DNA of 34,574 nucleotides, taken from the NCBI GenBank assembly GCA_947455705.1, contig CANGPO010000024.1, positions 1 through 34,574 of the forward strand, given 5' to 3'. Position numbers and translations under genes: made by a program. The notes under the pieces were generated by a model. It searched no databases, was not told where the DNA came from, and was given only the letters and a program-made list of their open reading frames with translations. Positions within the stretch are counted from its first letter, which is position 1. Every line of letters begins with the position of its first letter. This DNA is from Actinomycetota bacterium. GTDB lineage: Bacteria > Actinomycetota > Actinomycetes > S36-B12 > CAIYMF01. Shown in pieces: positions 1 to 17,472 of the stretch.

Positions 1-445
1 AAATCTCACTCGGCAGAACCACCCGAGCAAGGGCATCTGTGATTCGAGCCTGCGCCTCTTGTCCGCGGACACCATGCTGCTTGAGAGCTAACTTTGCTAA
101 ACGACCAAGCCTCATCGTTGGATTGAGCGCGGCCTGCGGACTTTGCGAGACGAGCGTGATCGACGTGCCGTGTACTCGGCGAAGTTGTGCCTGCGTCGCA
201 TCCACGACGTTGACACCATTAATCAGAACCGTTCCCGTCACCTGCGCGCCTGAGAAATCGCCTAAACCAAGGATTGCCAGCAAAGCGGACGTCTTTCCCG
301 AGCCGCTTTCACCGACGAGTGCCACGCACTCACCCTCGAATACATCGAGCACAGGCAGTCGTGAGACAACTCGGTCACCATAGGCAACTCTCATGTCTCG
401 AACCGAGATCAACAGATCGGCGTTGACTGGGCTTGTAACAGTCAT
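1..445 (-). CDS. Peptide-type ABC transporter ATPase (DppD/OppD-like), partial
   Basis: This is the ATP-hydrolysing subunit of a dipeptide/oligopeptide-class importer, acting on the cytoplasmic face of the membrane. The visible N-terminal part (about 148 residues) begins MTVTSPVNADLLISVRDM. It contains a Walker A motif (GESGSGKT, around residues 49-56) and a Q-loop region (SQSPQAALNP, around residues 98-107), both typical of DppD/OppD. The signature motif, Walker B and the C-terminal oligopeptide extension lie beyond the window edge. The ATG at 443-445 overlaps the TGA of the upstream permease by four bases (ATGA), which indicates translational coupling. It is the last visible gene of the leftward DUF917-HyuA-transporter operon. 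The family is certain; the transported substrate is not known from sequence. Confidence 0.93.
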   Translation of the reverse strand, partial: MTVTSPVNADLLISVRDMRVAYGDRVVSRLPVLDVFEGECVALVGESGSGKTSALLAILGLGDFSGAQVTGTVLINGVNVVDATQAQLRRVHGTSITLVSQSPQAALNPTMRLGRLAKLALKQHGVRGQEAQARITDALARVVLPSEI

Positions 446-1341
446 GATGTGAACCCCCGTCGCGGGTCCAACGCGGTACGCATACCTTCACCCAGCATGT
501 TGAACGCGAATGCGGCAATGAGAATCGCCAAGCCTGGATACAAGGAAACCCAGTACGCAGTCGTGAACAAATCCTGACCTTGCGAAACCATCAAGCCCCA
601 CTCAGCTGTCGGTTCTTGAGCGCCAAGCCCCAGAAACGACAACGCGGCAGCGGTGAGAATGATGCCACCGGCATCAAGTGACAACTGAACGATCACCGGC
701 GTCAAGGAGTTGGGCAGGACATGTCGGAACACCGCACGAGCGGGTGAGATTCCCAAGGCGCGCACAGCGTCCATGTAGGCCCGCCCGGAGATGGATGCCG
801 CAACTCCAGCGGCGAGGCGGGTGTACCAGGGCCACCATGTGACCGTAATGGCCAAAATGGCCGTCTTGAGGTCCGGCTCAAGGACGATACACAGCGCCAG
901 TGACAGCAACAACGCAGGGAAAGCCAGGAAGACGTCTGTCACTCTCATAACGAGATCGCGGATCCATCCACCCGCATAGCCAGCAATGACTCCAAGAGTT
1001 ACACCGATGATCACCGACAAACTCAGCACGCTGAACACGATGAGAAGGGACGTCCGAGCGCCGAACACCACGCGGGTATAGACGTCACGGCCTACTTGAT
1101 CAGTGCCGAACCAGTGTTGGGAACTTGGTGCTAGGAGAGAGTTGACGGGATCGACCCCGCCCTGTGCATCTTGCGGGTATGGCGTAATCCACGGCGCAAG
1201 GATGGCCATGACCACGATGACCAGTAGCACTACCGCACCTGCAACGAACATCTTCTGACCGCGGAGTCGCCCTCGCGCCAACGACAAGAAGGCAAACCTT
1301 TCGTCGTTCGGTATGAGTTCCTCTGGCGGGATGATCGTCAC
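442..1341 (-). CDS. Peptide-type ABC transporter permease (DppC-like)
   Basis: Inner-membrane permease of the dipeptide/oligopeptide importer, 299 residues, the usual size for DppC. After a short cytoplasmic N-terminus there is a first membrane segment (about residues 30-52), then the conserved HWFGTDQVGRDVYTRVVFG stretch typical of DppC. The EAA loop that contacts the ATPase is visible as MDAVRALGISPARAVFRHVLPN-like sequence near residues 188-210. Five to six membrane segments are expected. The start is GTG at 1339-1341, overlapping the TGA of the DppB-like gene by four bases (GTGA). The C-terminus overlaps the ATPase start in the same way, so the three genes form one coupled unit. Confidence 0.93.
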   Translation of the reverse strand: MTIIPPEELIPNDERFAFLSLARGRLRGQKMFVAGAVVLLVIVVMAILAPWITPYPQDAQGGVDPVNSLLAPSSQHWFGTDQVGRDVYTRVVFGARTSLLIVFSVLSLSVIIGVTLGVIAGYAGGWIRDLVMRVTDVFLAFPALLLSLALCIVLEPDLKTAILAITVTWWPWYTRLAAGVAASISGRAYMDAVRALGISPARAVFRHVLPNSLTPVIVQLSLDAGGIILTAAALSFLGLGAQEPTAEWGLMVSQGQDLFTTAYWVSLYPGLAILIAAFAFNMLGEGMRTALDPRRGFTS

Positions 1342-2354
1342 GACAACCTGACCCGCGGATCGATGAAGGTTTGCGCGATGTCAACCAGCAGGTTCGCGAT
1401 GACATACGCCAAGGCAACGATCAGAGTAACCCCAGCAACCGCAGCGGTATCCAGTGATCGAATGGACGCGACAGCGTAGTTGCCAAGGCCGGGCCAGTTG
1501 AAAATGGATTCGACGAGAAATGCGTTCACCAGAGAGTACGCGAACACCAAGGCGAGCAGAGTAAGTATCGGATTCAACGATGGACGAAACGAAAATCGTC
1601 GCAGCACCTGACCAGGAGCGAAGCCCAGAGCCCGCTCTAGTCGCGCGTGGTCAAGCGATGCCTCTTCAGAAACGGCAGCGCGCGTCATCTGCGTAACGAC
1701 GCCGATCGGATATGCCGCGACCACAAGCGCTGGAAGAATCAGATGGTGAAGGGTGCTCAGGAAGATCGGCCAGTTGCCGGTAATAAATGCATCCACGATG
1801 GTGATGTTCGTGTAAAGATGCAGCGGCGAGGTCGAATCCAGTTTCGAATCGTATTCACCAGCAACGGGAAACCAGCCAAGCTTTGTGGCAAACGTGTTTT
1901 GAACGATCAAGGCCAGCAGGAAGACGGGAAACGCCGCGGCGAACATCGAACCCAAACGCACAGCCCCGTCGACTGGTGATCCAAAGAAGCGAGCGGCGAG
2001 AAGGCCAAGCGGAATACCAATCAGAACCGCGAAGATCAGCGCGGTCCCTACAAGTTCCAGCGAGGCAGGAAATGCGATCGACAGGTCATGCGTGACTGGT
2101 AGTCGAGTATGCAGGCTCGTTCCCCAGTCACCTTGAACAAGGCCAGACATGTACATACCGAGTTGAGCAATGACCGGCTTGTCTAAGCCCAAGAGTTCCC
2201 GAGCCCTAGCAAGATCTTCCGGGCTTGCCCGGGGACCTGCGTATGCCGCTGCAGGATCCCCGGGCAGTAACCGAACAACTATGAACGTCAGAACCACTAC
2301 CCCGACGACGACAAGCGCAGCTTGCGCAAGCCGACGGACGAGGTAGCGCCCCAT
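1338..2354 (-). CDS. Peptide-type ABC transporter permease (DppB-like)
   Basis: Partner permease of the DppC-like protein, 338 residues. It starts MGRYLVRRLAQAALVVVGVV, the classic DppB N-terminus: a short basic stretch followed by the first membrane helix. The family motif RLLPGDPAAAY follows at about residue 30. An EAA-type loop (LDHARLERALGFAPGQVLRR) lies in the C-terminal half. The reading frame stays open further upstream to 2492, but that extension lies inside the binding-protein gene and is not DppB-like, so the ATG at 2352-2354 is preferred. This ATG sits one base after the stop of the binding-protein gene, which supports co-transcription. Confidence 0.93.
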   Translation of the reverse strand: MGRYLVRRLAQAALVVVGVVVLTFIVVRLLPGDPAAAYAGPRASPEDLARARELLGLDKPVIAQLGMYMSGLVQGDWGTSLHTRLPVTHDLSIAFPASLELVGTALIFAVLIGIPLGLLAARFFGSPVDGAVRLGSMFAAAFPVFLLALIVQNTFATKLGWFPVAGEYDSKLDSTSPLHLYTNITIVDAFITGNWPIFLSTLHHLILPALVVAAYPIGVVTQMTRAAVSEEASLDHARLERALGFAPGQVLRRFSFRPSLNPILTLLALVFAYSLVNAFLVESIFNWPGLGNYAVASIRSLDTAAVAGVTLIVALAYVIANLLVDIAQTFIDPRVRLS

Positions 2355-2355
2355 A

Positions 2356-3981
2356 TCAGGCCCCCGGTGCCATGTTGTAGACAAACGGAACGTTCGGGTA
2401 CGCCGGATTGTCAACGTAGTTCTGAACGGTTGACGAGTAGGCACGCTGGTAGTTCTGCACGTACAGAACCGATGCCACTGCATCCTGATCAATGATCATC
2501 TTTTGCAGCGTGGTGTATGCAGCCTGGGCAAGCGGTGGAGTGACAGCCGTCAACGCCGGAAGAGAATCGATCAGCTTGTCCGCAGCCGCGTTATTCCAGT
2601 ACGCCAGGTTGAAGAAGGGCGGGTCAGCGCTATGGAACATATTGATAAACCAGGTGTACGCATCCGCATAGTCCGGGTACCAATACATCACGAAGATGTC
2701 CTGACGCTTGGCTGTGTCCGCGGACTTAGCCCGATCCCACTGTGCATTCCATTGCAACGGCGTCGCCTTCAACTCAACGCCCAACTGCTGCAGCGCTGAG
2801 GTGAGCAAGGTTGCGAATAGCTGCTGATCGGCATCGCCTTCGGCATACGTCATCGTCAGCGAAAGCTTGTTACCACCGGGGCCGTAGCCTGCATCGGCGA
2901 GTAGTGACTTGGCTTCTTCGAGGTTCTGTTGTTGAACGATGTTTTGATTGAAACCCAACAGGCCCTTCGGAACGACGCCATTGGCCTGAACCACGCCACC
3001 CTTAAGTGCAGAAACAAGACCGTTGTAGTCGATCGCGTCACGCACTGCCTTGCGAACTCGGACGTCCTTCATCGGACCATCGGCGGTGTTGTACAGCGCG
3101 AGCAAGTTCTGGAACGAGGATGTCACCGATGTGGCGATTCCCTTGGTGTTCTGTGCCTCGGCGAAAATCTGGGGGTTCAAACGCCCCACCATCGACACGT
3201 CACCACTCTGGAGAAGTTGCCACGATGTGGTTACTTCCGGGACCACGCGGTACTCAACATTCTTGTAGTGAGTTCCGGTCCATCCTCCCCAGTAACCGTC
3301 GAATGCGGCCAGCTTGACCTCAGTTTCGTGACCCTTATCCCACAGGGCCACGGTGTACGGACCGGAGCCACCATCCTTGCCGGTTGCGACAAAGTCCTTG
3401 AAGGCAGTCGTGCCGCCAGCCTTTTCGTCATAGATGTATGCACCGTACGACGATGACGAAATGAGATCGATAGGAGCTGGGTAACTCAGATTGAATACGA
3501 CCGTGTTGGCGGAGGGAGTTTCAATGGTCTTAACGGCTCCCCAGATGTACGAGGCTCCACCTTGAAGCTTCATCGTGCGCTCGATAGATGCTTTTGCCAT
3601 GGCGGCATCAAGGACCGCACCGTCATGGAACTTCACCCCATCGCGCAGTGTGAACGTCCAGGTCTTACCGCCATTGGATTGCTGCCACGCAGTGGCCAAC
3701 AAAGGCTCGACCTTCTGCGTAGCCGGGTTGTACCGAGTCAGGGTCTCGTACACGTTCGGCATCACGATGCCCTCGTTCGAATAGGACGTTGCAGGGTCCC
3801 AGTCAGTCACGACTTCGAGGTTCTGTGCGTACACAAATGTGTCACTCACTGCCGTCGACGTCGACGGGTTGGCCGAGCTGTCAGAGGGCTTAACCGCACC
3901 GCCTGAACATGCAGCCAGAAGTGACGCCGCACTCGCAACTGCAATGAGTGCCCCGACAGTCTTATATCTCGTACTGCGCAT
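2356..3981 (-). CDS. Extracellular solute-binding lipoprotein, family 5 (peptide/nickel type)
   Basis: Substrate receptor of the importer, 541 residues, within the usual range for family 5 binding proteins. It has a lipoprotein signal peptide: a basic MRSTRYK start, a hydrophobic segment, then a lipobox ending LLAAC with Cys25 as the lipidation site. After a Ser/Thr-rich tether the mature protein shows family 5 features: the YNPATQKVEPLLATAWQ region and the WTFTLRDGVKFHDGA segment, both hallmarks of DppA/OppA-like proteins. The ATG is preceded by a good Shine-Dalgarno sequence (AAGGAG, plus-strand 3989-3994). Location between hyuA and the permeases suggests that its ligand feeds the HyuA/DUF917 enzymes. 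The ligand cannot be deduced. Confidence 0.93.
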   Translation of the reverse strand: MRSTRYKTVGALIAVASAASLLAACSGGAVKPSDSSANPSTSTAVSDTFVYAQNLEVVTDWDPATSYSNEGIVMPNVYETLTRYNPATQKVEPLLATAWQQSNGGKTWTFTLRDGVKFHDGAVLDAAMAKASIERTMKLQGGASYIWGAVKTIETPSANTVVFNLSYPAPIDLISSSSYGAYIYDEKAGGTTAFKDFVATGKDGGSGPYTVALWDKGHETEVKLAAFDGYWGGWTGTHYKNVEYRVVPEVTTSWQLLQSGDVSMVGRLNPQIFAEAQNTKGIATSVTSSFQNLLALYNTADGPMKDVRVRKAVRDAIDYNGLVSALKGGVVQANGVVPKGLLGFNQNIVQQQNLEEAKSLLADAGYGPGGNKLSLTMTYAEGDADQQLFATLLTSALQQLGVELKATPLQWNAQWDRAKSADTAKRQDIFVMYWYPDYADAYTWFINMFHSADPPFFNLAYWNNAAADKLIDSLPALTAVTPPLAQAAYTTLQKMIIDQDAVASVLYVQNYQRAYSSTVQNYVDNPAYPNVPFVYNMAPGA

Positions 3982-4044
3982 CCGTGATCTCCTTAATCTG
4001 ACTTCCAGGTACGTACATCAGTCTTTCGATCGCTTTCAACCTAG

Positions 4045-5607
4045 TTAAATCCACGACAGCGGGCCTGCTGCTTTGACGTTAACGCGAATAGCTGGTTCTG
4101 ACAGGTAACTCAGCGGTATTTCCACCAGTTCCACAATCTCAACTGAGTTCGGATCCGCGCCGGCTTGAACGGCACGCTGCTTGGCCATATCGCAGGCCCG
4201 GTCGATGGCATCTCGTCGACCCAATCCGTCGGGCACAATCGCATCCCAACGACCGCTGGCTAGGGCGATCGCCGCGCCAACGGCATTCGCCACATCTGCG
4301 TGATCGGGTCGGATCACCTGACTTGCTCCCGGAACCACATCTGGGACGAGGAATGCTCCGCCACCCACGACCACAAGTGGCCGCTCGGCCTTGCCGAGTG
4401 ACATGACGTCGACGGCATCACCGAACATGGCATCTGCGACGGCAAGCCCGCGGGCAAGTCGTTCGGCGTAACTAGCGCCAATGGACGACGAACCAAACGA
4501 TGCCCGACCACCGGCCACACCAGCATCACTCAGGGTTGCGACAGATCCGCCAAAGATCAACGCCTCGCTGCCGAGCCGGTGACCAACCGATTGCGGACCC
4601 ACGCGTTCGCCGTCATCGGAAACGAGAGTTCCGCCGCCGAGTCCAATACTGATCACGTCCGGCATCCGGAAGTTGGTGGCAACTCCACCGATCCGAACAG
4701 GCGCGGTGGATTCCCGCGGTAAGCCCTTAATGAGAACCCCGAAGTCCGTTGTCGTTCCCCCAACATCGGCAACGATCGCATCTTCGACGCCCGACAGCAC
4801 TGCCGCACCACGAATTGAGTTCGCAGGCCCTGAGCCAATCGTGAGGACGGGATATCTGGAGGCGTACTCCATCGCCATCAACGTACCGTCGTTCTGTGCG
4901 AAGAACGTCGCTGGTTGCATCCCCCGCTCGCTCAAGACCTGGGAAAGCGCGCCCGTCACGTCACGAGCGACACCGTGGAGAGCGGCATTGAGCACAGTTG
5001 AGTTTTCTCGCTCAAGAAGTCCGATCTGGCCAATCTCGTGACTCAGCGAAAGAGCTACAGATTCACCTAACACTTCACGCACAAGTTCCCCGACTTTGCG
5101 TTCTTCGTCGTGTACGACAGGGCTGAAAACACCTGTTACGGCAACGGCATCAGCGGTTCCCGCCACCGACTCGAGGAAACGCCGAATCTCGTCGAAGTCC
5201 GTTGGAGCAATCCGTCGACCGTCAATGAGGTAGCCACCTCGAGCGAGGAGTTCACCCGCAGAAATGGCGGCACGCAAGTCATCAGGCCATGCCGTCAATG
5301 GTGGTACCGCTGTGGTCGCTGGCGCCCCGATCCTGATCACTGCCACCTTGCCTAGGCGACGGCGTTCGACAATGGCATTCGTCGCTGCTGTCGTACCGAG
5401 CATCACCCGGCCGACCCGGCTCGGGTCGTTGATTCCCTCAAGGACGGCCGCTAACGCCGCGCGCATACCGCCGGTTACGTCGTCAGTTGTTGGTTGCTTG
5501 GTCCACGTAACGACCTGATCTTGTGCATCCAAAACGACGGCATCGGTGTTCGTCCCCCCGACATCGATGCCGATCCGAAGGTCTTTGGATTGATTAGATG
5601 AAGGCAC
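4045..5607 (-). CDS. Hydantoinase/oxoprolinase family protein (HyuA-like)
   Basis: Member of the ATP-dependent hydantoinase A/5-oxoprolinase superfamily, which activates and opens cyclic amides or carboxylates ketones. Here it is a 520-residue form. The actin-like ATP-binding fold is shown by IDVGGTNTDAVVLD (about residues 14-27) and later phosphate-binding elements VADVGGTTTDFGVL and GLGGGT. These correspond to the Hydant_A_N and Hydantoinase_A domains. No HyuB partner gene is in view; the neighbour is a DUF917 protein instead. The GTG at 5605-5607 is chosen because a strong GGAGGAGG sits six bases upstream; the frame is open further but without such a site. The gene overlaps the DUF917 gene by 14 bases. 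The true substrate is unknown; hydantoin, 5-oxoproline or another lactam are options. Confidence 0.9.
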   Translation of the reverse strand: MPSSNQSKDLRIGIDVGGTNTDAVVLDAQDQVVTWTKQPTTDDVTGGMRAALAAVLEGINDPSRVGRVMLGTTAATNAIVERRRLGKVAVIRIGAPATTAVPPLTAWPDDLRAAISAGELLARGGYLIDGRRIAPTDFDEIRRFLESVAGTADAVAVTGVFSPVVHDEERKVGELVREVLGESVALSLSHEIGQIGLLERENSTVLNAALHGVARDVTGALSQVLSERGMQPATFFAQNDGTLMAMEYASRYPVLTIGSGPANSIRGAAVLSGVEDAIVADVGGTTTDFGVLIKGLPRESTAPVRIGGVATNFRMPDVISIGLGGGTLVSDDGERVGPQSVGHRLGSEALIFGGSVATLSDAGVAGGRASFGSSSIGASYAERLARGLAVADAMFGDAVDVMSLGKAERPLVVVGGGAFLVPDVVPGASQVIRPDHADVANAVGAAIALASGRWDAIVPDGLGRRDAIDRACDMAKQRAVQAGADPNSVEIVELVEIPLSYLSEPAIRVNVKAAGPLSWI

Positions 5608-6721
5608 GAGCTGCCTCCTCCACTGGGACGTAATCAAGGTCGTATCCGAATGCCTGCGGTCCGACGACCTCAAGTCCCCGCGATGTTCGCCAGAGCGGAT
5701 CACACGCCCACGCCAACACGCTCACGCGTTGGCCGTAGCGAACGAGCTCTGTGGCGATCGCACCAGCGGTATGCATATCAACGACGGTGATCAAGTCCGG
5801 CACAGACGCCAGAACAACCCCGTCTTCAAAAGCCACCAGATTCTCGTTCTGGATCTCGAGCCGAACAATGCGATTGACGTCATCACCAATACCGTCAATG
5901 ACGACGCTGCCACGCACGAAGCCGCCACCTGTTCGGCGTTCAACCTCGACCACTTTCCCGGTGATGAGTTTCGCCGCTCCAAGCTCACCAACGAGGGCCG
6001 CGACAGGATCGGCGGCACCTTCAGTAACCCGACCAATGCGTATCGCTTGGCTTACTGTGCCTTCGATAATCGCGCCACGCATACGACCTGCACTAATGAC
6101 ATTGTCCGCCATTAACGCATAAGAGCCGGCTGCCACAGACACCATGCGCGAGATCGTTTCCGCCCACTCCCAGTCTGTGGGCCGCAGGATCGTCACATTG
6201 CCGATGACGTCCACCAGCCCAATGATCTCGATCGGTAGGCCGGCAACATTGGTCGAAACCATTTGAACTTCGGGGAATGCGCGTCCCATCTCATCGCCAT
6301 CGACAAGCGGTAATCCCAACTGGGCTGCTAGGGCGACGGGTACGACACCGTTACCGCCACCAATCTCAGAACTCATGACTGCCACGGCAGTTGCTCCGAG
6401 GGCTTCCTCTATGGCCTCCCTCATCAGATACGCCTCGTGGATGCCGTGAATCATTTCGTGACCAACGGTCGGCGCGCCGATACCACCAAGGGGAAGCACC
6501 AAACCATCATCTGGAAGCTCATCCAACGTCACCAACGGGACTGGTCCATGCTTTTCAAGCGCGCTGAGCGCGATCAGCGCACCAGATTCGACTTCGCCGC
6601 CGCCACCGGTACCCAAAACAGCGCAACCTCGAGCAAGGGCAGGTAGGTCGGCGACCGTTATCTCTCGAAGACGCTCAGGGGTTTGAGGCATGTCGTAAGT
6701 CAAGAACGCAACGGAGTTCAC
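5594..6721 (-). CDS. DUF917 family protein
   Basis: 375 residues if started at the GTG at 6719-6721. A second possible start is the ATG at 6689-6691, giving MPQTPERLREITVADLPALA, 365 residues. Neither has a clear ribosome binding site, so a leaderless message is possible. The glycine-rich AVLGTGGGGEVE block after the N-terminal helix is the family signature, and EIGGGNGVVPVALAAQLG and VDGDEMGRAFPEVQM are also typical. DUF917 proteins are usually encoded beside or fused with HyuA-type proteins. Their exact role is not established as far as I know; they are thought to work with the HyuA partner. It is the first gene of the leftward operon and diverges from the PucR regulator. Confidence 0.9.
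   Translation of the reverse strand: MNSVAFLTYDMPQTPERLREITVADLPALARGCAVLGTGGGGEVESGALIALSALEKHGPVPLVTLDELPDDGLVLPLGGIGAPTVGHEMIHGIHEAYLMREAIEEALGATAVAVMSSEIGGGNGVVPVALAAQLGLPLVDGDEMGRAFPEVQMVSTNVAGLPIEIIGLVDVIGNVTILRPTDWEWAETISRMVSVAAGSYALMADNVISAGRMRGAIIEGTVSQAIRIGRVTEGAADPVAALVGELGAAKLITGKVVEVERRTGGGFVRGSVVIDGIGDDVNRIVRLEIQNENLVAFEDGVVLASVPDLITVVDMHTAGAIATELVRYGQRVSVLAWACDPLWRTSRGLEVVGPQAFGYDLDYVPVEEAARAFI
5614..5621 (-). promoter_or_regulatory. Strong ribosome binding site deciding the HyuA start
   Basis: Minus-strand GGAGGAGG lies six bases before the GTG at 5605-5607, inside the last codons of the DUF917 gene. It fixes the HyuA start within the overlap and suggests translational coupling of the two enzymes. 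Confidence 0.8.
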
Positions 6722-6727
6722 CGCTAC

Positions 6728-6740
6728 GTGCTTACAGCAC
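6728..6740. promoter_or_regulatory. Palindrome between the DUF917 operon and the PucR gene, candidate operator
   Basis: GTGCT-TAC-AGCAC is a perfect 5+5 inverted repeat lying only seven bases before the GTG start of the DUF917 gene in the 71-base divergent region. A second small dyad, TTTG-CTCA-CAAA, lies at 6763-6774, next to the AT-rich stretch CTATATTTAT (6751-6760), which may hold the -10 elements. Such placement is what one expects for the binding site of a divergently encoded regulator, here the PucR-family protein. Binding is inferred only. Confidence 0.45.
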
Positions 6741-6792
6741 TAAGTTTGGCCTATATTTATGCTTTGCTCACAAAACACGATGGGCCGATCAT

Positions 6793-8277
6793 ATGGCGAC
6801 AGTCCGAGACCTCCTCAGGCACATCACCACGGCAGGGCTCTATCTGACGGCCGGCGCGGTATCCGACGTCGAGGTCACATCAGTGCTCATCGCCGAGACT
6901 TTAGATGCGATTGCCCAAGCACCGCCGCAGAGCTTGATCGTTTTGACCCCATCGTGCACTCAACAAAGCGCCTCGTATGAATTCGATGTCGCTGTTCGTC
7001 AGGCCGCCGCGATTGGCGTCGCCGGTCTTGTGTTCTCGGAGACAACAACGTTGTCCCACACAACAACCCGCCTGGCCGAGAGATCCTCGTTGGCACTTCT
7101 CGGATGCGCTCCCAGAACAGCAGTCGCCGATCTCGTCGTCACGCTCGATCAACTAACCCGAGGCGACTCCGGCACGATGATGAATAGGGCCCTTGCAACA
7201 CTTGCGGAGACCGGTGAACTACGCCCGGACGAACCACTCGATGAGATTCTGCTGCGCATCTCGAAGCGACTCGGAACACCGATCGCTGTGGCTGATTCCG
7301 GTGAGGCCGTTTACGTCAATGGCATGGTGCGCTACCACCTGCGAGTTGAAACTGACGATCACGCCACTCGACTCGCGTTGCCGAGCATTGCCGCAGCCTT
7401 GGGGCGGTGGCAGGAATCCCTTGACGCGCAACGCGATGCACCGGAGCAGGCACGGACCGAGGCACTGTCCGAAGTGCTCATTCGCGAAGGCTCGCCGATC
7501 CCTCCCCTGACAATCGACCGGCTACGAGCCACCGGGTTGTCACTTGATGCCACACATTTAGGCGTGTGCGTATCAGTTGGCCAGTCCGCATCCACATCCG
7601 AAGACGAGTTGCTCACAAAACGTCTCCAACGTGAGCGCCTACGCATGACAGCGTCGTACGAGTTAGCAACGTCAGATGGTTGGAGCATCGCAATCATCGA
7701 GGAAGACGTCATCTTGGTACGGACATATCCGCATAGCAGCGACGCAGTGGATCGCGTCGTGCCTGCGGAACTCGAATCACTGGTCGCAACACTGCGCCGA
7801 GACTTTGAATCGAACAACCTCTACTTCGGAGTGGGTACCGCACAATCTGGGCTCACCGGTCTCCAGCAATCCACCAAGGAGGCCCGAGTAGCGGCGGGTG
7901 CGGCCGCAACCGAAGGAACCGCTTGGGTGATGTCCACCTTTGACGCCACGGGGGTGAACCGACTACTTGCCGAAATGAGCTCATCATGGGCAGGTAGACG
8001 GGTGATTTCTGAACTGTTGGCCCCGTTGGACGCACTTGGGACGGGCCGATCACAGTCCAGCGTCGAAACGCTCGTTGCTTATCTTGATGCCCGTGGTTCA
8101 CTCGTGGAGGCAGGGCGAATCCTGCATCTTCATCCCAACGCGGTTGCCTACCGCATTCGACGTATTCGTGAGCTGACGTCCTGGGATCTCGATGACGCAG
8201 AGCGTCGCTTTGCCCTTCATGTCGCATGTCGGATCCGATTGATGCAATACACGCCGTCGCGACTCCCCCATGTGTAG
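6793..8277 (+). CDS. PucR-family transcriptional regulator
   Basis: 494-residue regulator with the usual PucR layout. An N-terminal PucR sensor domain (about residues 1-125) begins MATVRDLLRHITTAGLYLTAG. A central GGDEF-like CdaR-type region follows. The C-terminal helix-turn-helix (HTH_30, about residues 420-480) contains AYLDARGSLVEAGRILHLHP and NAVAYRIRRIRELT. PucR relatives control purine, hydantoin, amino-acid and related nitrogen-compound pathways. Its divergence from the DUF917-HyuA-transporter operon makes it the probable local regulator, responding to the imported compound or a breakdown product. The ATG at 6793 has no evident Shine-Dalgarno sequence. The gene converges on the kinase gene, with a 177-base spacer. 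Confidence 0.9.
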   Translation: MATVRDLLRHITTAGLYLTAGAVSDVEVTSVLIAETLDAIAQAPPQSLIVLTPSCTQQSASYEFDVAVRQAAAIGVAGLVFSETTTLSHTTTRLAERSSLALLGCAPRTAVADLVVTLDQLTRGDSGTMMNRALATLAETGELRPDEPLDEILLRISKRLGTPIAVADSGEAVYVNGMVRYHLRVETDDHATRLALPSIAAALGRWQESLDAQRDAPEQARTEALSEVLIREGSPIPPLTIDRLRATGLSLDATHLGVCVSVGQSASTSEDELLTKRLQRERLRMTASYELATSDGWSIAIIEEDVILVRTYPHSSDAVDRVVPAELESLVATLRRDFESNNLYFGVGTAQSGLTGLQQSTKEARVAAGAAATEGTAWVMSTFDATGVNRLLAEMSSSWAGRRVISELLAPLDALGTGRSQSSVETLVAYLDARGSLVEAGRILHLHPNAVAYRIRRIRELTSWDLDDAERRFALHVACRIRLMQYTPSRLPHV

Positions 8278-8420
8278 TAGGTGAACTGGCTATGTGCGCC
8301 TGCGATAAACAACATGAAGGTAATTACGCCAATGTGACTACGCTTTTTGATCACCCACATGGAGTGATGGACTCCCCCAAATGGGTTACTGACAGGCTCG
8401 GAACTTCACGAGTCCGGCAC

Positions 8421-8466
8421 GCAGAGTCAGGAGCGCAGAGTCAGGAGCGCAGAGTCAGGAGCGCAG
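8421..8466. repeat. 14-bp tandem repeat, 3.3 copies
   Basis: The unit GCAGAGTCAGGAGC occurs three times exactly (8421-8434, 8435-8448, 8449-8462), followed by a partial GCAG. The third unit contains the stop codon of the leftward PfkB kinase gene (TCA at 8455-8457), so the other units lie in its 3' untranslated region. This points to local slippage duplication of the gene end. Copy-number change downstream of the stop would not alter the protein. The rest of the 8278-8454 spacer contains only a weak hairpin (GGAGT-GATGG-ACTCC). Confidence 0.9.
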
Positions 8467-9315
8467 CTTGGCGACAAACTCGGCAAGCGGTATGCCCTTT
8501 TGCCTCTCGCTCATCGCCTGAATAGATAACGACGCATAGAGCACTGCAGCTTCAACCCGTCGCGAAAGCTCAAACCCTTGCAAGTCAGCCCAGATATACG
8601 CCGCTGTGAAGGCGTCACCGGCACCGGTCGGATCAGGTACCTCAATAGCAGGAGCCGCCACGTCGACGTGATGACCGTCAGCATCGAAAGCGATTGCACC
8701 CTTGTCACCACGTGTCATGACCACCGTCGTACCGAGCTCTGCCAAACGTCGTGTCGCGTCAACCGGATCGTCACTGCGCATCAGAGCACAGGCCTCACGT
8801 TCGTTGAGAAAGAACGCCGCGAGGTGCGTCAGCGGTTCACTCATTCTCCCAGCGAACTGGACCGCCTCAGGATCACCGACGATCGCGTACACCTTGGGGT
8901 GCGGGGCAAGTAGGGCGACGTTGGGCAGATTGGCAACTAGCGCCCGTGCTTCGATCGACGCCAGAGACTTCGTATCAGGGGCAGCATCTGGATTGATCGT
9001 GATGAAGCCGCGATCCCGTTGGGACGGTATAGCTACCGATATTGGCGTGGCATTGGTTTCCCGTCCGATCCACTGAACGCCGCTTTGTTCAACAAGCCTT
9101 TCAAGCACCTGACCAAGTTCATCAGTTCCGCGAGGCGCACTGATAGCTGAGCTGAGGCCGAGTTGATGACACGCGAAGGCAACGTTGGCTATTCCGCCCG
9201 GCGTCAGCGTGAGTCGTTTTGCTAAAACCTCTTCACCTGGTGCGGGTAGATGACTGAGCTCGTGGAAGATCAGATCGAGGAACGGCGACCCAACGCAGAC
9301 AACATCCACGTTCAC
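8455..9315 (-). CDS. PfkB-family carbohydrate kinase
   Basis: 286-residue sugar kinase of the ribokinase/PfkB family, cytoplasmic. The N-terminal signature region is GGIANVAFACHQLGL (about residues 40-54). The C-terminal signature is DPTGAGDAF (residues 228-236), with Asp234 as the expected catalytic base and the GAGD turn forming the anion hole. The start is GTG at 9313-9315, overlapping the stop of the GH4 gene by four bases (GTGA), so it is translated with that glycosidase. This suggests that it phosphorylates either the sugar released by the GH4 enzyme or a glycoside before cleavage. Exact specificity cannot be read from sequence. The last codons lie in the 14-bp tandem repeat. Confidence 0.92.
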   Translation of the reverse strand: MNVDVVCVGSPFLDLIFHELSHLPAPGEEVLAKRLTLTPGGIANVAFACHQLGLSSAISAPRGTDELGQVLERLVEQSGVQWIGRETNATPISVAIPSQRDRGFITINPDAAPDTKSLASIEARALVANLPNVALLAPHPKVYAIVGDPEAVQFAGRMSEPLTHLAAFFLNEREACALMRSDDPVDATRRLAELGTTVVMTRGDKGAIAFDADGHHVDVAAPAIEVPDPTGAGDAFTAAYIWADLQGFELSRRVEAAVLYASLSIQAMSERQKGIPLAEFVAKLRS

Positions 9316-10655
9316 GAGAAGATCTCCCGCAAATCGGGTTGGTCGTGCATATAGCCGTCAAAAATCTGTTGAGCTACCGACACCGACGGCACGAGCGGAT
9401 GTAGAGCAAGAGCCCGCACGGCCTGCGTCCGCGAGCCAGTGAGCGCCGCATCAATGGCGATCCGCTCTGCACCACGCACCTGCGCAATCAGCCCTTGCAT
9501 GTTGAGGGGTACGTCACCAATTGCTGTGGGTGTCACACCACCGCGGTTCACCACACACGGCACCTCTACGATCGCCTCCTCATCGAGGAACGGAAGAGCG
9601 GATCTATTAGGCACGTCGAGAATCATGACGCTGTGACCGTCGGAATACATGGCATCAACAACAGCCAACGCGAGCCCGCCGTAACCACCGGTATGACGCG
9701 CGGCGACCACCTCTTGTTGCTCGGTTTCGCGTCCGTCCCAAGCCTCGGCCATGTAGTTAGCCTCCCGTTGAGCCAAGGTGACTTCCCACTCGCTCAAAGC
9801 TGCCCCCGGCTCAACGTCCGAACCCTCATAAAAGTCACGCTGAGTCCGTTCGAGATATCGACTACGCGGCGTGCCAGCGCTCATCGCTTCGAACGCCTCG
9901 CGTTGGTTGTAGTAGTAGAACAGATACTCATTGGGGATCATGCCGGTGGCTTGAATCCATTCAGCCCCAAACAATCTGCCCTCTTCAAACGACGAAAGTC
10001 GGGGCGTATCGGCGATCAGCTCTGGCAAGACGTCGCGATTCCCAACCCGCATGCCCTTGAGCCAACCGAGGTGATTGATACCGAAGTAGTCGAACCAGAC
10101 GTGCTCTTGCTCATACCCTGCGGCTTGGGCGGATCGTCGACAAAGCTCAGACGGAGTGTCACAGATGCCGATGACGCGGTCGCCGAGAATGCGCCGCAAT
10201 GCCTCAGTTACCAACCCCACGGGGTTCGTGAAGTTAATGAACAGTGCGTTCGGAGCGTACCGCTGAACGTCTAAAGCGATCTTTGTCATCACCGGAACTG
10301 TCCGCAACGCGTAGCCGATCCCGCCTGCCCCGGCGGTCTCTTGGCCGATGACGCCACATGAAATGGCCACCGTCTCATCGATCACTCGACCCGGGATACC
10401 CCCAACGCGAATGGCACAGTAAATGACGTCTGCACCCTCCAACGCCTCGTCGAGTCGAGTCGTCGTGGTGACCTTCGTCGTCGTCCCCAAGACGCGCTTG
10501 ATGTCGGCGATGACCGCACCGATCCGCTCAAGCCTGGTTACGTCGACGTCGTACAGCACTACCTCGTCGTAGCTAACGGCCGTTCCACCCGAGGCAACTG
10601 CACGAAACATGGCAGGCGTGCGAAATCCGCCACCACCAAGCAAAACCAGCTTCAT
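9312..10655 (-). CDS. Glycoside hydrolase family 4 protein (6-phospho-beta-glucosidase type)
   Basis: 447-residue GH4 enzyme. This family cleaves glycosides by a redox/elimination mechanism needing NAD and a divalent metal. The N-terminus MKLVLLGGGGFRTP is the Rossmann NAD-binding loop. INFTNPVGLVTEAL (about 140-153) is a family motif. The metal ligands are visible as Cys165 in GICDTPSEL and His195 in GINHLGW. The gene is the first of a two-gene unit with the PfkB kinase. GH4 6-phospho-glucosidases usually act after PTS uptake, yet no PTS gene is in view, so the adjacent kinase may supply the phosphorylated substrate. Choice of glucosidase over alpha-glucosidase or galactosidase is tentative. 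The start ATG is at 10653-10655, with only a distant GAGTGAGG upstream. Confidence 0.88.
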   Translation of the reverse strand: MKLVLLGGGGFRTPAMFRAVASGGTAVSYDEVVLYDVDVTRLERIGAVIADIKRVLGTTTKVTTTTRLDEALEGADVIYCAIRVGGIPGRVIDETVAISCGVIGQETAGAGGIGYALRTVPVMTKIALDVQRYAPNALFINFTNPVGLVTEALRRILGDRVIGICDTPSELCRRSAQAAGYEQEHVWFDYFGINHLGWLKGMRVGNRDVLPELIADTPRLSSFEEGRLFGAEWIQATGMIPNEYLFYYYNQREAFEAMSAGTPRSRYLERTQRDFYEGSDVEPGAALSEWEVTLAQREANYMAEAWDGRETEQQEVVAARHTGGYGGLALAVVDAMYSDGHSVMILDVPNRSALPFLDEEAIVEVPCVVNRGGVTPTAIGDVPLNMQGLIAQVRGAERIAIDAALTGSRTQAVRALALHPLVPSVSVAQQIFDGYMHDQPDLREIFS

Positions 10656-10817: not shown

Positions 10818-11204
10818 CTAGGTGATGCACACCGCATATATGTCGGCAGTTTCGGTAGTCGTGGTGGTCTGCAGCGTGACGTCCCATAGCCGCGCATTGA
10901 CAGCATCAGGAGCCGACGTTGTGACGGCAACTGCGGACGAAACACTGAATCCGCCCCCAACAGCCACTTCACCAGTAGGACAGGTGACCGAAATTGCGTT
11001 AGTCCCACTGACTGGCAGGGCATTAGCTAGCGACGACACGATATGACGAGTCGAAGCAACTGTTGGCCCCGCAGCCCCCACCGCACCAGCCGCACCCGCA
11101 GGACCAGCAGGACCGGCTGGCCCCGCGCACTGACGCAGTGTCTTTGGCGGGTCAACTGGCCATCGCACGTGACGACACGCTGCCTCATATCCATCATCGA
11201 TCAA
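10818..11204 (-). pseudogene. Remnant of a collagen-like surface/secreted protein (5' end lost)
   Basis: The open frame encodes 128 residues. The part from about residue 26 (base 11129 downward) looks like the tail of an actinobacterial collagen-like protein. It has a short Gly-X-Y run (AGPAGPAGPAGAAGAVGAAG) and then a globular C-terminal domain with VTCPTGEVAVGGGFSVSS and a final IYAVCIT, whose two cysteines are typical of the family tail. The first 25 residues are unrelated to such proteins. The expected signal peptide, membrane segment and longer collagen region are missing, and no continuation was found in other frames up to 11470. It is best read as a 5'-truncated gene. A small intact protein cannot be excluded. 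The spacer to the left (10656-10817) holds only a possible hairpin, CGTGGTGG/CCACCACG (10759-10797). Confidence 0.55.
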
Positions 11205-11470
11205 GGAACCGTGGAAAAACGCCTAACCGCAGGCAGTTTGGCTATCCACCGCCAGAAGCAACCGAACGTTTATCTCGTCCGGCCATTCACCCACGATGAG
11301 CGGATCCGAATGGCTGAGGTGCATTCACGCAGAGATCATGCACGTCATCCTCGTGGTTACACCGTCGAGTTTCGAGAGGGCGCGGACTCAATCACGCTCA
11401 CCATCGATGCCGCTGGGCGACGCGACCGGCTACGCTCTTCTACGAACACCCCTGAACCTGAAGGATGCAC

Positions 11471-11863
11471 ATGTCGGTTTTCACTGACGTCGAAATTGCC
11501 TATCTGGGTACACAACGGCTCGCTCGGTTGGCGACCTCGTCTGCCAGTGCAACACCGGATGTATCCGCGGTCGTCTTCTCGGTTGACGGGGACACAATCA
11601 CTAGTGGCGGCTACGACATAACCAAGACCGTCCGATATCGCAATCTGCTTGCGAATCCACAAGCTGTGATCGTGATTGACGATCTACCCACCACAGATCC
11701 GTGGGCTCCCCGAGGAGTGAAGATTCGCGGCACCGCCATCGTTGAGCAAGGCATGCACGGCTTGTTCATTCGCATTACCCCGAAGACGATTTGGACATGG
11801 GGCCTGGACGAGTCAAAGGACGCCGAAGCGCGATTCGCTGGTGTTGCGCGTCGCGATGTTTAG
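11471..11863 (+). CDS. PPOX-class F420-dependent oxidoreductase family protein
   Basis: 130-residue split-barrel flavin/F420-binding protein, cytoplasmic. It begins MSVFTDVEIAYLGTQRLARL and contains ITSGGYDITKTVRYRNL and DPWAPRGVKIRGTA, which match the actinobacterial PPOX-class F420 family in layout and size. The C-terminal IRITPKTIWTWGLD is also typical. The ATG at 11471 is preferred because GAAGG lies six bases upstream; an in-frame ATG at 11465 is less well placed. Reaction and substrate are unknown; relatives reduce quinones, tetrapyrroles or xenobiotics. A LivH-like permease gene follows after 12 bases, so the two probably share a message. Confidence 0.85.
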   Translation: MSVFTDVEIAYLGTQRLARLATSSASATPDVSAVVFSVDGDTITSGGYDITKTVRYRNLLANPQAVIVIDDLPTTDPWAPRGVKIRGTAIVEQGMHGLFIRITPKTIWTWGLDESKDAEARFAGVARRDV

Positions 11864-13036: not shown

Positions 13037-13834
13037 TTACGGCGTGAGGAAGTCCGTGATGCGGCCCGCAACCTGAGCACGATCTCCGCTGACGGTCAGG
13101 AAGTGACCCCCTGCGAGGACTTCAACCTCGACGGCCCCTGGCGCCATGCTTTGCTGGGTTGGGGTTACGTAGTTCACTGCGGCGAACGGATCCGACTCGC
13201 CAATCAGGAACAGTGAGCGAGTGTCGAGCCCAACCACGTCTTCTACGAAGGAGGCACCGGTCCACACCAAGAAGTATTGCTTGTATGCCTCTTCGTTCAT
13301 CGCAGCGAACGTGGCGTCGACAAGTGCGCGATAGGCCACCGGATCGGCCCCGAGAACTGGGTCAAGCCCGGCAATGATCATTCCCGGACCATCAGCAGCA
13401 TCGGGTCCCTTGGAGTAAGCGGCCATGTAGAGCGGGCCGGTCTCAGCTGTCGCACCACAATTCTCGACCGCGGTCGCGTCAAATCCCGACGGCATAACCG
13501 GGCAAATACCTACGAGTGAACCAACGCGATGGGGTGCCAGCGACGCAATCCGCAGACCGGCGGCACCACCGTAGCTGTGGCCAATGATGTCGAAGGCTTC
13601 CCAGCCCAACTCGTCCGCGACGGCCATCTGCTGCCGAGCGAGGTCGGTGATGTCCATGGCTGGCTCCTGGCCGCGGGCATCGCCATATCCGGAGTTATGG
13701 ACGATCGCGATATCGAACTGCTCAGGGTCGAAGGAATCAAAGAAGCCGTCAAAGACAGACGGTCCAAACCAGCCGTGCAGAACGAGCACTCGCTGTGGAC
13801 CGTGACCGATACGTTGCGCAACAACTGCAGCCAT
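13037..13834 (-). CDS. Alpha/beta hydrolase
   Basis: 265-residue single-domain alpha/beta hydrolase, with no signal peptide and so probably cytoplasmic. The oxyanion region is VLVLHGWFG (about residues 16-24). The nucleophile elbow is GHSYGG with Ser87. Asp215 in IGESDPF and His244 in AGGHF complete a plausible catalytic triad. The ATG at 13832-13834 has a good Shine-Dalgarno sequence (AGGGAG, plus-strand 13841-13846). It lies downstream of the glutamine-synthetase-like gene in the same direction, about 104 bases apart, so co-transcription is possible. The substrate (ester, lactone, amide or haloalkane) cannot be deduced. Confidence 0.88.
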   Translation of the reverse strand: MAAVVAQRIGHGPQRVLVLHGWFGPSVFDGFFDSFDPEQFDIAIVHNSGYGDARGQEPAMDITDLARQQMAVADELGWEAFDIIGHSYGGAAGLRIASLAPHRVGSLVGICPVMPSGFDATAVENCGATAETGPLYMAAYSKGPDAADGPGMIIAGLDPVLGADPVAYRALVDATFAAMNEEAYKQYFLVWTGASFVEDVVGLDTRSLFLIGESDPFAAVNYVTPTQQSMAPGAVEVEVLAGGHFLTVSGDRAQVAGRITDFLTP

Positions 13835-15500: not shown

Positions 15501-16937
15501 CTACGGTTGGACGGGTTGACCGTTGCCGTTGGTGTTGTTAGCCCATGTATTACTAGCAACATCAGACCACGATGCCACGGGCCCGTACTGACCACACTCT
15601 GGGAACAACGCCGAACCAAACACATTGTTCGTCACCGTCAGATGCGTATTCGGTAGCTCACCAGCAGACGGCGTGTAACCCGCGTACATGCAATACGCAC
15701 CACCATTGAGCAGGTTGTGATCGATCACCCAATTGTCATTCGGGCCAACCTCCGGATACATGCTGATCGCAGACGAACACAGATTCGTGTCACATGACAA
15801 CGAGTTATTCGAGATCGTCACATTCGAGATAGCACCCGACGAACCAATCGCCGACGCATGATTACCCGACTGATTATCAAACTGACCCACGAACGAGTTC
15901 GTGACCCGCATCCCATTCGTCGCCGAGATACCCCGCTGCGTACCGTGAATGTACGACGCGTTCACAACCAGATTCGAACCCGCATACACCGCACGATCCG
16001 CAGCAGCCCCAGGCTGACCCGTGATCTCCACATGATCCAGCGTCAAATTCGAAAACTCCGGATACTGACGAACCGCGTAATACGTCGTCGGCGCACTAAT
16101 CCGAGAATTCCGGATCGTCACATTACTCGCCGCAACCACAACATCAGACGCAATATCCGCACCATCAATCACAGTCCCATCCACCGTGATGTACGTCGGG
16201 CCCGTATACGGCCGCAGAGTTGTTCCAGTCAGACGCCATCCCGTCGTGGACGCGGATGGGAAACCAACCACAGACGAAGAAGGTGAAGGCGTCACAACCG
16301 GCGTAGGCGTCGGCGTCACAACCGGCGTAGGCGTAGGCGTCACGATGGGAGCCGCTGGCACTCCGATGACGACCGGAGCCGTGGCTACGAGCAGGTCAAC
16401 CACGTACAGGTAACCAGACTTGGCTGTCGTGGGAGTAGCTCCAGTGCCCGAAGCGTAAAGGCCATTAACACCTCGTACATACACGCTTGTCGGGAACACC
16501 GACGTACGCACCACAAGTCGATTCGGTGCGGACACCGATGCAACCACGCTCTGCCCGGATATGAGATTCACTGACGTCGCAAACGTTGCGTTAACCCATC
16601 CGCTGGAGGCCACCGCCGACATCGGCATCGACACACGAGCCAGCACACGCCCGGTCGATGTTGAAAGCTGCGCAGTTCGATTCGAGCCATCGGAGGTTGA
16701 TGCACGCCATACGCGAATACCTGTAACGGTAACCGCCTTCTTCGTCACCAAGAGGTTGCCAACGCTCAGCGGACTCGCCATCTGTGCTACGACTCGACCG
16801 GAGGGTTGAGAGGGAAATAGGGCACCGACGCTGATCGTCGACGCTGGTTGCACAGGGGTAGTAGCCGATACCGCTTGGGCTGGCCCTGCAACCAGCCAAC
16901 TGAGGATCATGACGAGGAACGTGCTCAACAGCTTCAT
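15501..16937 (-). CDS. Secreted DUF4082 and right-handed beta-helix protein
   Basis: 478-residue exported protein. A Sec signal peptide covers about residues 1-22 (MKLLSTFLVMILSWLVAGPA, then QA). Residues about 35-184 fit a DUF4082 domain (VTGIRVWRASTSDGSNRTAQL, SGWVNATFATSVNL, NGLYASG). A Pro/Thr linker (about 196-222, VVTPTPTP repeats) leads to a C-terminal right-handed parallel beta-helix (about 250-465) with repeated strands such as VTIRNSRI, LTLDHVEI, VTISNNSL and LTVTNNVF. Beta-helices of this sort are found in polysaccharide lyases, hydrolases and surface adhesins; catalytic residues are not recognised here. The frame stays open to 17129, but the ATG at 16935-16937 is chosen because it directly precedes the signal peptide. 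No good ribosome binding site is seen. Confidence 0.85.
   Translation of the reverse strand: MKLLSTFLVMILSWLVAGPAQAVSATTPVQPASTISVGALFPSQPSGRVVAQMASPLSVGNLLVTKKAVTVTGIRVWRASTSDGSNRTAQLSTSTGRVLARVSMPMSAVASSGWVNATFATSVNLISGQSVVASVSAPNRLVVRTSVFPTSVYVRGVNGLYASGTGATPTTAKSGYLYVVDLLVATAPVVIGVPAAPIVTPTPTPVVTPTPTPVVTPSPSSSVVGFPSASTTGWRLTGTTLRPYTGPTYITVDGTVIDGADIASDVVVAASNVTIRNSRISAPTTYYAVRQYPEFSNLTLDHVEITGQPGAAADRAVYAGSNLVVNASYIHGTQRGISATNGMRVTNSFVGQFDNQSGNHASAIGSSGAISNVTISNNSLSCDTNLCSSAISMYPEVGPNDNWVIDHNLLNGGAYCMYAGYTPSAGELPNTHLTVTNNVFGSALFPECGQYGPVASWSDVASNTWANNTNGNGQPVQP
16291..16343. repeat. 24-bp tandem repeat encoding the Pro/Thr linker
   Basis: Two 24-base units (16291-16314 and 16315-16338) differ at one base and are followed by a partial third (GTCAC). 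On the minus strand each unit encodes VVTPTPTP of the interdomain linker. Its length being a multiple of three allows linker length to vary without a frameshift. Confidence 0.85.
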
Positions 16938-17472
16938 GACTATGTTTTCGTCAAGAAGAACTGCGCGACTGCACTCACAAACAGGTGATGAGCTAGTCAT
17001 CCGAACGATCGGTAGTCCCCTAATTCGGACCGTACATGATGCCGATACGTAAAGGGGATGCTGCGCAGCTATCGGAGATCTGTCGTCGGATACACAAAAG
17101 AGTCGGGCCGAAGTAAGTCGCTTCCCCACGACTCAACTTCGGCCCGACTGCCTAACCGAACACTTCGATCATTGATGCTCTTAAGCCAATGATTCTCAAG
17201 TGCTCAAATCTCGAAAATGCTTACCAGTGTTGATCATTAAGATCTACCTCACTGCCATGCTCACTCTCGCTCACAATTATCCGGATCAGTCACGTCGAGA
17301 GGTCACACGACACGCCGAATGAACCGCGGTGTTACCGGCTGCCATGATGTGTCGATGAGCAGAGAACTCACACACCACCTCACGACGAGCCAGTCAACGC
17401 CTGAGCCACCGGAGAAATCTGCCTGCTTACGCATCTGTTCAACGTCGTCGACAACTCGAAGGTCAGCTACTC
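16938..17472. other. Intergenic region between divergent beta-helix and membrane-protein genes
   Basis: 535 bases without a convincing gene. It should hold the promoters of both divergent neighbours, but no clear -35/-10 pair could be picked. Visible structure is the long hairpin at 17101-17149, a 10-base palindrome GCTGCGCAGC near 17063-17072 and a small dyad CGGT-GTT-ACCG near 17327-17337. The segment 17150-17290 is relatively AT-rich. No tRNA-like fold was recognised. Confidence 0.6.
17101..17149 (-). terminator. Long hairpin with leftward T-tract, terminator-like
   Basis: Arms AGTCGGGCCGAAGT (17101-17114) and ACTTCGGCCCGACT (17136-17149) are perfectly complementary. An inner stem AGTCG/CGACT (17116-17120 with 17129-17133) closes an eight-base loop, CTTCCCCA. 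Read leftward, the stem is followed by CTTTTGTGT, giving an intrinsic terminator in that direction. No leftward gene lies to its right before the rightward membrane-protein gene at 17473. It may be an attenuator in a long leader of the beta-helix gene or the end of a short non-coding RNA. Confidence 0.7.

Follow-up and report, generated by a model that had tools for sequence, protein, structure and literature searches.

A putative cyclic-amide operon that sets a DUF917/short-HyuA pair beside classical HyuAB and a peptide-type importer

What would a bacterium do with an operon in which a peptide-type ATP-binding cassette (ABC) importer is coupled to a HyuA-like protein and to a protein of the DUF917 family, and what part would the DUF917 protein play in it? 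This question is raised by a 34,574-nucleotide stretch of DNA from an Actinomycetota bacterium (hereafter the window, that is, the whole of contig C24 in a draft assembly of 2.98 Mb and 154 contigs), which on its minus strand, from position 6691 down to position 1, encodes a DUF917 protein, a short HyuA, a substrate-binding protein, two permeases and the beginning of an ATPase. We lean, by a little, towards an operon that takes up and degrades a cyclic-amide compound using (i) a Dpp/Opp-type importer, (ii) a full-length HyuA/HyuB pair (HyuAB) that is encoded on another contig and (iii) the short HyuA–DUF917 pair, which might be a second enzyme.

Nine genes on two contigs

Position 1 of the window is a contig end, and the contig breaks off inside the first ABC ATPase gene. 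Another contig, C99, ends in 44 bases that are exactly the first 44 of the window, this 44-mer being present only at those two contig ends in the whole assembly, and joining the two gives back an uninterrupted ATPase gene that encodes 266 amino acids, the same length as in G013, a genome of the same genus. Beyond this gene, C99 encodes a second ATPase, a HyuA of 676 amino acids and a HyuB of 578 amino acids. The joined order is therefore DUF917, short HyuA, binding protein, two permeases, two ATPases, full-length HyuA and HyuB, with five successive 4-base overlaps from permease B through HyuB, and G013 has the identical nine-gene order on one contig (DUF917 94–95%, HyuB 93% and HyuA 87% identical). 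With gene order, reading frame and gene length in agreement, we infer that C24 and C99 are adjacent and carry one nine-gene operon; since the contigs join by overlap, frame, length and synteny with G013, HyuB can be assigned to the operon of the window genome. The preliminary description of this DNA, which counted six genes and took HyuB to be absent, thus saw an operon cut by the contig end. Past HyuB, no further catabolic genes turned up in G013, on C99 or in those stretches of the Streptosporangiaceae relatives that were read.

Within the window, the gene identities that had been proposed are borne out, Pfam domains supporting every named gene, and so is the tight coupling: the 14-base overlap of DUF917 and short HyuA, the 4-base overlaps of permease B with permease C and of permease C with the ATPase, and the 1-base gap between binding protein and permease B are all exact. 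To these must be added a 63-base gap, not mentioned before, which separates the short HyuA from the binding-protein gene.

The proteins encoded at the far end of the operon, whose genes overlap by 4 bases, are probably a classical ATP-dependent cyclic-amide hydrolase, to judge from gene content and motifs. The full-length HyuA has the ATP motifs DVGGTFTD, DVGGTSFD and GAIPGP, and HyuB keeps the metal residues Asp-His-Asp-His (in ALDFA, THPQDA and KAHWLD), which are those described for CapB (PMC8453981). The nearest solved relatives of HyuAB are N-methylhydantoinase and caprolactamase. Against caprolactamase, HyuA reaches 384 bits and HyuB 208 (beta subunit), compared with 246 for HyuA against the carboxylase model and 61 for HyuB against acetophenone carboxylase delta; both remain below the CapAB equivalog cut-offs (NF050156 and NF050157; 384/1000 and 208/1000 bits). 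In the mechanism proposed for CapAB, CapA activates the lactim with ATP and CapB hydrolyses it at the metal site (PMC8453981); full-length HyuA would likewise phosphorylate the amide in its lactim form, for HyuB to hydrolyse at its metal site. A second HyuA/HyuB pair of the window genome (L039, G000:C18, 235–10712), which is 31–36% identical to that of the operon, adjoins a branched-chain/urea-type ABC importer.

The DUF917/short-HyuA pair

What, then, could the first two genes contribute? Their linkage was followed in 90 loci (80 from a scan of genome contigs and ten more), which were picked by similarity, so that the counts describe that part of the DUF917 family and not the whole of it. DUF917 was counted as paired when a short HyuA lay on the same strand no more than 300 bases away, which holds for 89 of the 90 loci: all 31 whose DUF917 shares 55% identity or more with that of the window, and 58 of the 59 others. 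The DUF917 proteins that have no short HyuA nearby (L031, together with L181 and L182, which came from another search of the family) are all divergent, being 26–31% identical. The occurrence of DUF917 is patchy: it is present in 5 of 17 genomes at the level of the taxonomic family and in 15 of 166 at that of the order. Some actinomycetes and Anaerolineales have two to five DUF917 copies next to one short HyuA (L089, L093, L110 and others), which suggests heteromeric or diversified DUF917 subunits.

The DUF917 protein of the window is a clear member of its family, scoring 158.7 bits for PF06032 and 222.2 for PF20906, against cut-offs of 27. Its AlphaFold2 model (predicted local distance difference test, pLDDT, 91) has one clear match in the PDB, 2o3i (Z 36.4, the next row being at Z 4.9), which is an uncharacterised structural-genomics protein, so that structure gave no catalytic lead. 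Eight residues are common to all the DUF917 proteins compared (E109, D131, R137, P140, N282, E283, P298 and D299), whereas R252, Q281, T314 and Y319 hardly vary among the proteins paired with a short HyuA but differ in the four unpaired proteins compared.

As for the short HyuA, it resembles CapA and N-methylhydantoinase by sequence and by fold. Its predicted structure (pLDDT 89) matches CapA (6yra_A) with Z 28.9 over 494 residues, the match stopping before the C-terminus of CapA, and it keeps the two phosphate motifs DVGGTNTD and DVGGTTTD (D-x-GGT-x-x-D pattern), both of which are present in nearly all of 88 short-HyuA relatives. It has, in other words, the fold and phosphate motifs of an ASKHA ATPase, but not the GxxPGP motif and full C-terminal region of a canonical HyuA.

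Given the constant pairing, the simplest reading is that the short HyuA activates and DUF917 hydrolyses: the former would spend ATP on a ring carbonyl, and the latter, whose fold is unrelated to that of HyuB, would hydrolyse the activated carbonyl, the two acting as a second pair in parallel to or in succession with HyuAB. The precedent of a HyuA with a hydrolase that attacks an activated lactim, as proposed for CapAB, supports such a mechanism. The preliminary description had suggested that DUF917 replaces HyuB on the ground that HyuB was absent; that ground has gone, but the idea of DUF917 as hydrolytic partner gains from the near-constant pairing. The enzymes that NCBIfam names desulfurases would also hydrolyse a ring carbon, in their case one already activated by sulfur, which could fit the same chemistry. 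We give a little less than even weight to the resulting proposal, that is, that DUF917 and short HyuA form an undescribed family of two-subunit ATP-dependent cyclic-amide hydrolases in which an unrelated fold has taken the place of HyuB.

The association of these genes extends well beyond the window genus. The preliminary description tied the importer to the enzymes and named its absence from related genomes as the observation that would speak against this; the importer is in fact next to the pair in 28 of the 31 loci with close DUF917. Nine Streptosporangiaceae genomes encode, directly downstream, a HyuB that is 71–72% identical, and the nine-gene set occurs in four gene orders overall, in Actinomycetota and one member of the Bacillota. 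In Streptosporangiaceae a PucR gene stands between the second ATPase and HyuA, in L180 HyuA and HyuB come first, and in Mesobacillus harenae (Bacillota) they stand between the DUF917 pair and the importer. Such repeated association in differing orders argues for a shared function.

Several points weigh against this picture. The adenosine motif GxxPGP has been lost from the short HyuA, in which it reads GHRLGS (the family having G-Y/F-R/E-L/I-type sequences at this position), and the protein, of about 520 amino acids, is without the C-terminal parts of HyuA, the Pfam Hydantoinase_A model being matched only to position 174 of 291. With both losses, ATP use by the short HyuA cannot be taken for granted. 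Those members of the DUF917 family that are characterised are all desulfurases, to judge from their NCBIfam names, and neither a joint function nor any biochemistry of DUF917 with short HyuA is reported in the open-access papers searched (subscription journals lay outside the search). The two enzyme pairs are also separable: in Nonomuraea the operon has the importer and the DUF917 pair but no HyuAB, and plasmid loci of Allorhizobium and Agrobacterium with related HyuAB have neither DUF917 nor short HyuA within 9 kb. Finally, the importer does not fix the substrate, PepT-class binding proteins being known to take nickel, haem, opines and peptides.

Importer, regulator and candidate substrates

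The importer has all the parts of a Dpp/Opp (PepT) system (Table 1), namely an SBP_bac_5 binding protein, two BPD_transp_1 permeases with OppB/OppC-type N-domains and two ATPases, the count of two ATPases resting on the C24/C99 join. It would bring in the cyclic-amide compound. The sequence relatives of the binding protein in the PDB are peptide-, opine-, haem- and nickel-binding proteins, and neither this protein nor the permeases reach any NCBIfam equivalog cut-off. The gene that faces the operon, as had been noticed before, encodes a PucR/CdaR-type protein, which may control it. Its two C-terminal PucR domains score above cut-off; the N-terminal PucR domain PF07905 was not detected in it at E 0.001 and is found in L116. 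A divergent PucR gene is likewise present in G013, L020, L021, L025, L059 and L180. No inverted repeats of at least 7 bases lie between the divergent genes, the arms of the palindrome listed in Table 1 being below that length, and its GTGC-N5-GCAC pattern is also found in G013, inside a conserved block.

Table 1. Features of the putative operon in the window and on the joined contig C99
Feature	Position	Strand	Domains or motif
DUF917 protein (S-Me-THD-like N and C domains), 365 amino acids, first operon gene	5594..6691	-	PF06032, PF20906
Short HyuA, 520 amino acids, GTG start	4045..5607	-	PF05378, partial PF01968
Substrate-binding protein, 541 amino acids, lipoprotein-like signal	2356..3981	-	PF00496 SBP_bac_5
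ABC permease B, 338 amino acids	1338..2354	-	PF00528, PF19300
ABC permease C, 299 amino acids	442..1341	-	PF00528, PF12911 OppC_N
First ABC ATPase gene, 5' part, cut by contig end	1..445	-	Walker A GESGSGKT
Divergent PucR/CdaR-type regulator, 494 amino acids	6793..8277	+	PF13556 HTH_30, PF17853 GGDEF_2
Short palindrome between regulator and operon, possible operator (weak)	6728..6740	none	GTGCT-TAC-AGCAC
Rest of first ATPase, second ATPase, full-length HyuA, HyuB	contig C99 (L038) 4032-9159	-	

Next to the regulator, genes for a PfkB-type kinase and a GH4-family glycosidase overlap by 4 bases (8455–10655); G013 keeps them, but they were not observed next to the operon in the other relatives. 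Further along the window there are a 192-amino-acid open frame without Pfam matches, located upstream of a branched-chain/sugar-type permease gene (11043–11621), a glutamine-synthetase-family protein (PF00120; 13939–15378) adjoining an alpha/beta hydrolase (13037–13834), and a 542-amino-acid protein whose one Pfam match is a DUF4082 domain (15501–17129).

Which compound might be imported? The notion of cyclic-amide catabolism, already put forward in the preliminary description, is favoured as far as family and neighbour evidence goes (HyuA/HyuB, NCS1 permeases, Asp/Glu/hydantoin racemases and an M19 dipeptidase). Hydantoins and cyclic dipeptides stand level as the foremost candidates, each of them possible rather than probable, something else is nearly as possible, and other lactams are improbable. 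The hydantoin-type racemases, NCS1 permeases and PucR regulators that are found near other DUF917 pairs point to hydantoin-like rings. Cyclic dipeptides are suggested by the M19 dipeptidase that adjoins the pair in L026–L030, by the PepT-class importer and by the cyclodipeptide-oxidase clusters, whose neighbourhoods are enriched in DUF917, hydantoin-type racemases and dipeptide ABC transporters (PMC11055893). A direct link to cyclodipeptide oxidase was rejected, its B gene (PF19585) being absent from 16 of 17 operon-bearing genomes.

A narrower form of the cyclic-amide reading, which we regard as unlikely though still the best placed of the alternatives, is that a proline or hydroxyproline cyclic dipeptide is imported whole, that HyuAB and/or HyuA–DUF917 open the diketopiperazine and that peptidases and the hydroxyproline pathway finish its breakdown. 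Besides the M19 dipeptidase and the cyclodipeptide-oxidase clusters, two observations speak for it: the plasmid loci that encode the 55%-identical HyuB relatives combine a PepT-type importer with a trans-3-hydroxy-L-proline dehydratase (626 bits against a cut-off of 550), and in the window genome, genes of the proline-racemase family have pyrroline-2-carboxylate-reductase-like, aminopeptidase-P-like and DHDPS/aldehyde-dehydrogenase genes as neighbours. However, all the hydroxyproline and peptidase genes lie outside the operon of the window, the correlation with hydroxyproline rests on few genomes, PF19585 is nearly always missing, and PucR and NCS1 partners point equally to hydantoins. A hydroxyproline-containing cyclic dipeptide is thus an attractive substrate, but a weak guess. 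Two loci of the window genome are likely hydroxyproline-degradation clusters, one with a DHDPS/aldehyde-dehydrogenase fusion and D-amino-acid-dehydrogenase-like and epimerase genes (L197, G000:C29, 3666–8341), the other with a proline-racemase-family gene and pyrroline-2-carboxylate-reductase-like and aminopeptidase-P-like genes (L198, G000:C77, 1713–5068). An agropinic-acid precedent, sought in the literature, yielded only unrelated beta-lactam papers.

More doubtful still is a thiohydantoin-degrading operon, in which DUF917 would desulfurise a thiohydantoin or S-methyl-thiohydantoin (for example, an ergothioneine breakdown product) and HyuAB would open the resulting hydantoin. The idea comes from the family names, since Pfam now calls DUF917 S-Me-THD-like and two NCBIfam models in the family are named thiohydantoin desulfurases, so that the earlier statement that DUF917 has no assigned role is outdated, and the step after desulfuration could fall to the HyuAB that the operon also encodes. 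Yet the window protein falls far below the cut-offs of both models, with 99.8 bits against 450 for S-methyl thiohydantoin desulfurase (NF058532) and 64.4 against 440 for thiohydantoin desulfurase (NF058529), and none of the proteins in 396 genomes of the phylum exceeds the NF058532 cut-off. It is not evident why a desulfurase should require the short HyuA with which DUF917 is so constantly paired, the nearest desulfurase-like protein (L181) has no such neighbour, and many relatives of the operon are without HyuAB. The L181 locus (G442, 3758–9991) places this DUF917 near AroM, an FAD-dependent oxidoreductase and an IclR-like regulator. An ergothioneine-type route was rejected on these desulfurase scores, ergothionase itself not having been searched for; the urocanase-family genes of the window genome are ordinary and occur in control genomes too, which makes them uninformative on this route.

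We consider it very improbable that, as first thought, HyuB is missing and a single HyuA/DUF917 enzyme alone handles the imported compound. The gene content of Nonomuraea, and of several members of the order of the window genome in which the operon ends after the importer, would fit, any HyuB in these genomes being at most about 37% identical and located elsewhere. But HyuA and HyuB are in the operon in the window genome, G013, the nine Streptosporangiaceae, L180 and Mesobacillus, and for the window genome the absence of HyuB is already refuted unless the C24/C99 join is wrong. The least probable alternative of all is that HyuAB is an ATP-dependent carboxylase of the acetone/acetophenone type in a ketone-degrading operon: carboxylases share its superfamily, but both subunits score higher as caprolactamase, their closest solved relatives are not carboxylases, and a peptide-class importer would be poorly suited to a ketone.

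Comparison with known systems

Uptake and degradation of a cyclic amide, the reading to which we incline, would place the operon in familiar company. CapAB of Pseudomonas jessenii and N-methylhydantoinase/5-oxoprolinase are like the full-length HyuA/HyuB in domains, ATP motifs and metal residues, and have the ATPase fold in common with the short HyuA, but the HyuAB of the operon scores below the CapAB equivalog cut-offs and sits with an importer and a short HyuA–DUF917 pair. On plasmids of Allorhizobium ampelinum S4 and Agrobacterium vitis, HyuB and HyuA are 55% and 48% identical to those of the operon and are likewise accompanied by a PepT-type importer (binding protein, two permeases, two ATPases), to which these loci add the trans-3-hydroxy-L-proline dehydratase and an Ldh-family oxidoreductase. 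Paenibacillus, Brevibacillus, Kribbella and others have the same adjacent DUF917–HyuA pair (DUF917 40–50% identical), with PucR in some, but among the 59 loci with less similar DUF917 a single-protein NCS1 'cytosine' permease (cytosine/allantoin/hydantoin class) takes the place of the ABC importer in 37 and HyuAB is found in one. The thiohydantoin desulfurases (Pfam S-Me-THD) have the same Pfam domains and belong to the same overall family, from which the window DUF917 is set apart by its low scores, its short-HyuA neighbour and its different residues at the paired-only positions. The cyclodipeptide-oxidase neighbourhoods (PMC11055893) differ in that the window genome has no cyclodipeptide oxidase B gene.

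What this operon adds to these systems is a DUF917/short-HyuA pair set beside classical HyuAB and a dedicated importer, DUF917/HyuA pairs being common in bacteria and occurring in archaea. If the proposed hydrolase family is real, it would be widespread in bacteria and some archaea, a single operon would contain two non-homologous ways of carrying out the same chemistry, and the thiohydantoin desulfurases would form a branch of a larger hydrolase family that attacks activated ring carbons. The operon would belong among the known cyclic-amide utilisation operons, and the DUF917/short-HyuA pair is its most interesting element.

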